From positions 1 through 64,000 of the forward strand of contig QZKI01000013.1 in assembly GCA_003598055.1 (NCBI GenBank): DNA of 64,000 nt, in the 5' to 3' direction. A program made the position numbers and the translations under genes. This DNA comes from Candidatus Abyssobacteria bacterium SURF_17. GTDB lineage: Bacteria; Abyssobacteria; SURF-5. Each line of letters begins with the position of its first letter. Position 1 is the first letter of the stretch. The notes under the pieces were generated by a model. The model saw only the letters and a program-made list of their open reading frames with translations. It did not search any database and was not told the DNA's origin. Positions 7,126-8,703 of this stretch are shown in pieces.

Positions 7126-8073
7126 GTGCACCGACTCAAATGGTTTGCCGCCTCTCTGGTCACGATGGCACTCGTCGTGACCGTCATAGGTTTGGTGATA
7201 CAACCGTATTCGCGACTCGAGAGACGAGCCGCTGTCCTCATCGACCAGCTTGCCCCGCCCGGCACAACGGTTGGCGCCATCGACATCGGCTTTCCACTCA
7301 CCGTGGAGATGACCAGCCTCGTCGTCCCCTTCGAAATCGACGGAGAGCAACGGGAGATTTCAGTCGAGAAGCTCACCGGCAACCTCTCACTCACACAACT
7401 TGTACGCGGGAAGTTCGGGGCCTCAATGACGAGTGACCTCTTCGGCGGGTCTGTGTGGCTTCATATCCAAACGAACAGCCTGCGGCGGGGGAAAACGCTT
7501 GACAACCCAAGGCTCACTATTGAGACAAGGGCCAGAGACCTCGATGTGGCTGCACTCTGTGATTTCTTCGAAGCGCCCACGATGGCGTCGGGCCGCTGCG
7601 ATGCCGACGTGGAGGCACAACTCAACGGGACAACTCTCATGAGTCTGCAAGGAAAAGCGCTCGTCATTGGAAAAAACATCGAAGTGCCTCCGATAAAGGT
7701 CGAAGGATTGATGCTTCCGGAAAATCACGACGGAAGGCTGACCGCCACCCTCGTTGCCAAGGACGAGAGCGTCCTGATTAAAGACCTCCGATTCGCTGGG
7801 ACCGCATATGATTTCTCGGGCAACGGAGCGATCCGGCTCCTCAAACCGTTAGAGGAGAGCGCACTCGATTGTTTGGTCTCGGCGATTTTCAAAGAACCCT
7901 TCTTCATTGCTGATGAGAGATTTTCTGGCCGAGCGGCGGAAGACATTGTCGACACCCTGGTTGCAAGTCAGAGTACGGTGTTCTTCAAGCTTCGAGGAAC
8001 CCTCGGCAAGCCAAAGATGCGGCTCGACCCCGCTGCATCGCTCCAGTCATTGACGCAACATCGCAACCGCTGA
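7126..8073 (+). CDS. GspN-like (type II secretion, AsmA-type) membrane-anchored protein
   Basis: 315 residues from GTG 7126. One N-terminal signal-anchor helix (FAASLVTMALVVTVIGLVI) is followed by a periplasmic beta-rich domain. The arrangement LPLTVEMTSLVVP-like strand, LTGNLSLTQLVRGKFGASM, loss of Cys catalytic features and the C-terminal FFKLRGTLGKPKMRLDP are typical of GspN/AsmA-like proteins of deltaproteobacterial-type secretion loci. GspN is an accessory of type II secretion thought to act near GspC/GspD. No other gsp gene is in the window except the GspF-N-like small protein immediately downstream, which strengthens the idea of a dispersed secretion or pilus function. Family assignment is moderate. 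Confidence 0.55.
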   Translation: MHRLKWFAASLVTMALVVTVIGLVIQPYSRLERRAAVLIDQLAPPGTTVGAIDIGFPLTVEMTSLVVPFEIDGEQREISVEKLTGNLSLTQLVRGKFGASMTSDLFGGSVWLHIQTNSLRRGKTLDNPRLTIETRARDLDVAALCDFFEAPTMASGRCDADVEAQLNGTTLMSLQGKALVIGKNIEVPPIKVEGLMLPENHDGRLTATLVAKDESVLIKDLRFAGTAYDFSGNGAIRLLKPLEESALDCLVSAIFKEPFFIADERFSGRAAEDIVDTLVASQSTVFFKLRGTLGKPKMRLDPAASLQSLTQHRNR

Positions 8074-8232: not shown

Positions 8233-8249
8233 TGGCACACGAGTTGCTT
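8233..8249 (+). promoter_or_regulatory. Sigma-54 (RpoN) promoter
   Basis: TTGGCACACGAGTTGCTT carries the GG (-24) and GC (-12) elements exactly 10 bp apart, matching the TGGCAC-N5-TTGC consensus. Predicted start is about 8259, 34 nt before the ATG at 8293. Such promoters need an enhancer-binding activator; none is in the window. Confidence 0.75.
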
Positions 8250-8292
8250 TTCTAAAAAAGTGCAAGGACTTTTGGGAGGTTCAGAAATTCGT

Positions 8293-8484
8293 ATGAAGAA
8301 GTTCTACTACATTGCTCTTAAAGAAGGCAGAACATGCGAGGGAATCGTGCGGTGCGACTCCATAGATTCCGCCCGAGAGGAACTGATGCGGGAAGGCTTA
8401 AGGGAGATTAATCTCGCGATACTCCGCTCCGATGCAGTTGATTTCCTCGACATGACCGAACAAACAGAGGGTAGCGCGGGCTAA
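8293..8484 (+). CDS. Small protein resembling the N-terminal domain start of GspF/PilC
   Basis: 63 residues. The pattern KKFYYIALKEGRTCEGIVRC followed by DSIDSAREELMREGLREINL matches the first about 45 residues of GspF/PilC proteins (FxYxALdxxGkxxxGxixaxsxxeAlxxLrxxGlxpvxi). Nothing of the membrane domains follows. ATG 8293 is preceded by GGGAGG, spaced rather far (13 nt). It has its own sigma-54 promoter and a strong terminator, so it forms a complete single-gene transcription unit rather than a broken gspF. Possible roles are a regulator or competitor of a secretion/pilus platform (speculative). Confidence 0.6.
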   Translation: MKKFYYIALKEGRTCEGIVRCDSIDSAREELMREGLREINLAILRSDAVDFLDMTEQTEGSAG

Positions 8485-8547
8485 TCGAAAGCTTGAGGCA
8501 GCACGCGGGACGAACGCTGCGGCACTAGGTCGCGTACCCATTTGTAC

Positions 8548-8592
8548 GAACGATGGGCCGAAGCTGGCATGGTTTGGCCCATCGTTCTTTTT
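8548..8592 (+). terminator. Strong intrinsic terminator
   Basis: GAACGATGGGCC (8548-8559) and GGCCCATCGTTC (8576-8587) form a perfect 12-bp stem followed by TTTTTG. It ends the sigma-54-driven small gene. Nothing else is seen in 8485-8703. Confidence 0.9.
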
Positions 8593-8703
8593 GTTTCTTT
8601 TGGAAAGCGCTTGAACCGGCCGACGTCTTGCGGTTAAGAGAGCAAGGGGAAAAGGGAATAGACGAAACGGGCAGAATACATGCAGTGACTCTCGACTGCT
8701 TGT

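Follow-up and report, generated by a model that had tools for sequence, protein, structure and literature searches.

Organisation of the locus

The window, by which we mean the whole 64,000-nucleotide stretch of DNA analysed here, contains a compact transcription unit that follows a gene for a type II secretion protein. The features of this region are:

7126-8073, + strand: gspN-like gene (AsmA-like type II secretion protein; TIGR04411, E=2.4e-19), above the curated cut-off and immediately 5' of the P0001 gene
8233-8247, + strand: sigma-54 (-24/-12) promoter, TGGCACACGAGTTGC; exact consensus, conserved before orthologues, rpoN present
8293-8484, + strand: gene for P0001 (ATG 8293, TAA 8484), a 63-residue protein that is very probably a stand-alone GspF/PilC N-domain; residues 1-44 form the predicted beta-beta-alpha-beta domain and residues 45-63 an acidic tail, RSDxVDFLDx
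8499-8513, + strand: 15-nt block, GGCAGCACGCGGGAC, conserved within the 3' untranslated region; lies after the stop codon and before the terminator
8548-8599, + strand: intrinsic terminator; 12-bp perfect stem and T-run, with compensatory changes in orthologues

The phylum is represented by three genomes only, each a separate genus: that of the window (G000) and two others (G001 and G002). A perfect sigma-54 promoter had been proposed in the preliminary description, and TGGCACACGAGTTGC is indeed an exact match to the sigma-54 pattern TGGCACRNNNNTTGC, the only one in the window. With up to one mismatch allowed, the window holds four sites where 2.6 are expected, a number not above chance there. 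The site is credible because the exact pattern is enriched at genome scale (19, 26 and 14 occurrences in the respective genomes, compared with 5, 3 and 4 for a backwards control), because rpoN is found in all three genomes, and because the site is conserved before the orthologous genes, without change in G001 and with a single mismatch in G002. The distance from site to ATG is 38-45 nt in all three genomes, and the P0001 ATG is preceded by a GGGAGG Shine-Dalgarno sequence. Inspection by eye of the regions upstream of the sigma-54 sites gave no convincing common activator motif.

The terminator described earlier, with its 12-bp stem, is likewise present. Its arms, 8548-8559 and 8576-8587, pair perfectly and are followed by a T-run; folding lengthens the stem to 15 bp, and in the orthologous terminators the stem is preserved through compensatory changes. 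A terminator scan missed this hairpin (8548-8587) because its 16-nt loop exceeds the limit of the tool.

A conserved gene under purifying selection

Homologues of conserved length, on which the preliminary description had staked its proposal, exist in both of the other genera. A whole-genome search found one orthologue in each, 67 and 65% identical to P0001 and 66 and 64 residues long. Substitutions between genera fall mainly at the third codon position (9/8/38 and 11/8/25 for the three positions), with dN of ~0.19 and dS of 1.6 or saturated, and the P0001 gene is thus under clear purifying selection. The 63-residue reading frame is therefore a real gene; the codon-position pattern and the orthologues rule out an artefact or random frame, and an origin as a phage or plasmid gene is ruled out by the lack of any match in viral contigs, phages and plasmids. 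A paralogue of 65 residues, 44% identical, is encoded elsewhere in the same genome (G000:C14:61198-61395; L002 1501-1698). It is flanked by a cupin-like and a molybdopterin-oxidoreductase-like gene, shows no sigma-54 site by eye, and lacks the conserved acidic tail.

The 3' untranslated region is conserved in one place. The 15-nt block GGCMGCACGCGGGAC is identical save for one variable base in the three genera (window 8499-8513; L003 1709-1723; L004 1462-1476, - strand), while the non-coding sequence around it has diverged. The block has no Rfam match and is not a genome-wide repeat; GCACGCGGGAC, considered as a repeated element, was rejected, being not enriched over control genome-wide. Persistence of the block where synonymous sites are saturated could mean that the RNA weighs no less than the protein: sigma-54 would then drive a small RNA carrying a conserved element near its 3' end, with the reading frame of minor importance or one half of a dual function. 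The 3' regions do fold better than shuffled sequences (z -3.4 to -4.6). Much of that folding energy is supplied by the terminator, however, Rfam offers no match, and the selection on the reading frame points to the protein, so that we regard an RNA-centred explanation as very improbable.

P0001 as a free-standing GspF/PilC N-domain

Taken alone, P0001 gives nothing significant against Pfam, NCBIfam or PHROG, and no Pfam match at E<=1; three homologues gave weak matches to the NCBIfam GspF model (E 0.07-0.16). The relationship becomes clear with profiles. When a profile of the four small proteins was searched against 386 genomes, 26 of the 27 distant loci inspected were N-termini of GspF/PilC, in frames of 390-500 residues that carry T2SSF (PF00482); the remaining one was a restriction-enzyme-like chance match. 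Alignment of the small proteins with 17 GspF/PilC N-domains by hhalign gave 98.3% probability (E 2.3e-14) over residues 1-41. In the reciprocal direction, a GspF N-domain profile built without the small proteins was searched against 1459 frames and recovered all four, with E-values from 1e-8 to 8e-10 and no reversed-sequence match below E 4. Because 13 of the 17 rows of that profile had come from the first search, the test was repeated with a profile fully independent of that search, made from seven GspF N-domains of the same phylum only; the scores were weak (E 0.001-0.6), and the four small proteins ranked 1-4 of the 1459 frames.

The likeness to the first 45 residues of GspF/PilC that had been suggested for this protein thus holds, the profile searches matching residues 1-42, as does the suggested lack of a membrane domain. 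P0001 is not itself a GspF/PilC (T2SSF, PF00482) platform protein: it is too short, has no hydrophobic helix and no Pfam match, and lacks the GspF linker, the helical domains Cyto1 and Cyto2 and the transmembrane segments. Nor is it a piece recently detached from a local GspF, since in the alignment it is only 20-24% identical to the GspF/PilC N-domains of its own phylum, less than to several foreign ones. We conclude with high confidence that P0001 is a stand-alone GspF/PilC N-domain. It shares with the N-domain of GspF/PilC platform proteins (residues 1-54 in PulF) the profile over residues 1-42, the order of secondary structure, and the conserved glycines and core residues; it differs in being free-standing, at 63-66 residues, and in having an acidic tail and a sigma-54 promoter of its own.

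Predicted structure and location

Likeness of fold, the lack of which had been named in advance as grounds for rejecting the proposal, is supported by structure prediction. AlphaFold2, with only the four small proteins as input, places strands at residues 2-10 and 13-21, a helix at 24-33 and a strand at 37-44 (pLDDT ~95); for N-domains of PilC from this genome and from others the predicted strands are 3-9 and 15-21, the helix 25-34 and the last strand 38-45. In these models P0001 and the PilC N-domain share one order of elements, beta-beta-alpha-beta, which has also been described for the flexibly tethered N-domain of PulF (PMC10790770).

The fold is a small one of a common kind. In the PDB, the nearest structures by Foldseek were T7 Gp2 and YkzG, at E 0.19 and worse, with nothing below 0.001. 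T7 Gp2 and YkzG (RNA polymerase epsilon) are RNA-polymerase-binding proteins. The GspF N-domain fold might therefore have moved to an unrelated job, such as binding RNA polymerase or another regulator, and the conserved acidic tail, which GspF lacks, would fit such a change. We consider this improbable. The resemblance to Gp2 and YkzG is confined to a small beta-beta-alpha-beta-like fold, with no significant score and no sequence relation found; the fold search met no solved GspF N-domain to compete with them; and the genomic context and co-regulation described below point to filament systems.

The tail RSDxVDFLDx is conserved in the three orthologues, with a net charge of -4 to -7, whereas GspF linkers are mostly positive or basic at the corresponding place. 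P0001 has no signal or membrane segment. Anionic lipids are the presumed ligand of the PulF linker adjoining the N-domain (PMC10790770); with an acidic tail in its place, P0001 is probably cytosolic.

Genomic context and plausible co-regulation

The small gene directly follows gspN in all three genera, and in each genome that gspN is the only gene above the TIGR04411 cut-off. An hflC gene lies 3' of the small gene in two of the three. Directly 5' of gspN, G001 and G002 carry an unknown gene of 171-175 codons (L115 8198-8725; L116 8362-8877), which is not seen at the window locus.

Could P0001 then be an accessory subunit of the T2SS that works with GspN, contributing to the machine positively and in stoichiometric amounts and not as a regulator or decoy? 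Linkage to the sole gspN in three genera favours such a role, and in Acinetobacter baumannii the T2SS needs GspN for the transport of surface lipoproteins (PMC12802150). On the other hand, the small gene has a sigma-54 promoter separate from gspN, and the T2SS operon gspD-E-F-G-H-I-J is located elsewhere in the genome. The two proteins are unrelated, GspN being periplasmic with a beta-taco fold, and P0001 has nothing in its sequence that would export or anchor it. An accessory role alongside GspN seems to us unlikely, if less so than the transfer to an unrelated job.

The other exact sigma-54 sites are informative. In G000 and G001 one precedes the pilT gene that heads a pilT-pilS-pilR-pilC cluster, and further sites lie before a second pilT, a pilB with an MshEN domain, and pseudopilin genes; still others precede MshEN-HDOD, HDOD, flagellar and cytochrome genes (pilS, pilR and the flagellar genes being named from sequence by eye). 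The sites before pilus and pseudopilin genes make co-regulation of the small gene with pili plausible but not certain. The pilus and secretion context of the earlier proposal is thus supported, by the adjoining gspN and by these sigma-54 targets.

MshEN domains are normally found on PilB/GspE motors. The gene at L074 395-1774 (G000:C139), which stands behind an exact sigma-54 site, encodes MshEN fused to HDOD, a further case of a domain of filament motors employed outside the motor itself.

A possible role in trans

Why would the N-terminal domain of a platform protein be made as a protein of its own? When residues 2-54 of PulF are deleted, secretion and pilus assembly persist with less efficiency (PMC10790770). 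A soluble copy would presumably share the binding target of the platform N-domain. Four or more GspF/PilC proteins are encoded per genome. Sigma-54 and an activator, probably PilR-like, would turn on the pilus genes, and the soluble N-domain would accumulate at the same time. It could then take the position of the platform N-domain, which we guess to be on the motor ATPase, on its anchor protein or on the membrane-facing surface of the platform; in binding the partner there it would strengthen or weaken one of the several T2SS/T4P machines in trans, the acidic tail standing in for the mostly basic, membrane-linked tether. We put the probability that P0001 is a trans-acting modulator of a type IV filament machine at roughly 45%. 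Counting against this role are the weak scores of the independent profile, the commonness of so small a fold, and the use of sigma-54 by these genomes for flagellar, cytochrome and HDOD genes as well.

If P0001 does act in trans, it would control filament motors in a way distinct from that of CpiA and the phage inhibitor Aqs1. Those small PilB inhibitors resemble it in proposed role only, as small soluble proteins on the type IV pilus motor (PMC8213720); CpiA is predicted to be mainly alpha-helical, with no homology to known domains, whereas P0001 is a beta-beta-alpha-beta domain derived from the platform.

The N-domain of GspF/PilC is dispensable yet required for full activity, and a naturally soluble version offers a tractable route to its partner. 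Flexibility of this domain has hindered crystallisation of full-length homologues.

Distribution and novelty of the free-standing form

A search for stand-alone GspF N-domain proteins, as the preliminary description had proposed, covered samples of 386 and then 290 genomes. Among the matches listed, such proteins occur only in this candidate phylum of three genomes, which has four of them. Two other candidates were set aside: a 97-residue frame in G257:C33 lies within the span of an 889-residue frame on the same strand, and the G050 candidate is a GspF truncated at the end of a contig.

The suggestion of a new small-protein family stands in part. Pfam, NCBIfam and PHROG have no model for the stand-alone form, and the literature searched holds no precedent for a free-standing, separately regulated GspF/PilC N-domain; the domain itself is already known, and what is new is its free-standing, separately regulated form. 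More tentatively than the modulator role itself, we suggest that P0001 may typify a new family in which the N-domain has been freed to control type IV filament machines in trans, under regulation of its own and as either decoy or adaptor. The N-domain would then be a general docking module, as it is also joined to other membrane proteins of the phylum.

Three proteins of ~215-250 residues in the other two genomes (L132, G001:C75; L130, G002:C26; L133, G001:C157) begin with a GspF/PilC-type N-domain, have a predicted membrane segment and lack T2SSF. Two of them are orthologues, and the C-terminal part is of unknown type; the membrane segment was read by eye, and for L130 was judged from similarity to L132.

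Finally, one PilC copy (L112 3569-4804; L075 4925-6154; L076 1876-3108) has an N-domain that is identical at 45 of 45 positions across the three genera, the rest of the protein being ~90% identical. Such complete identity suggests an unusually strong constraint on that N-domain.
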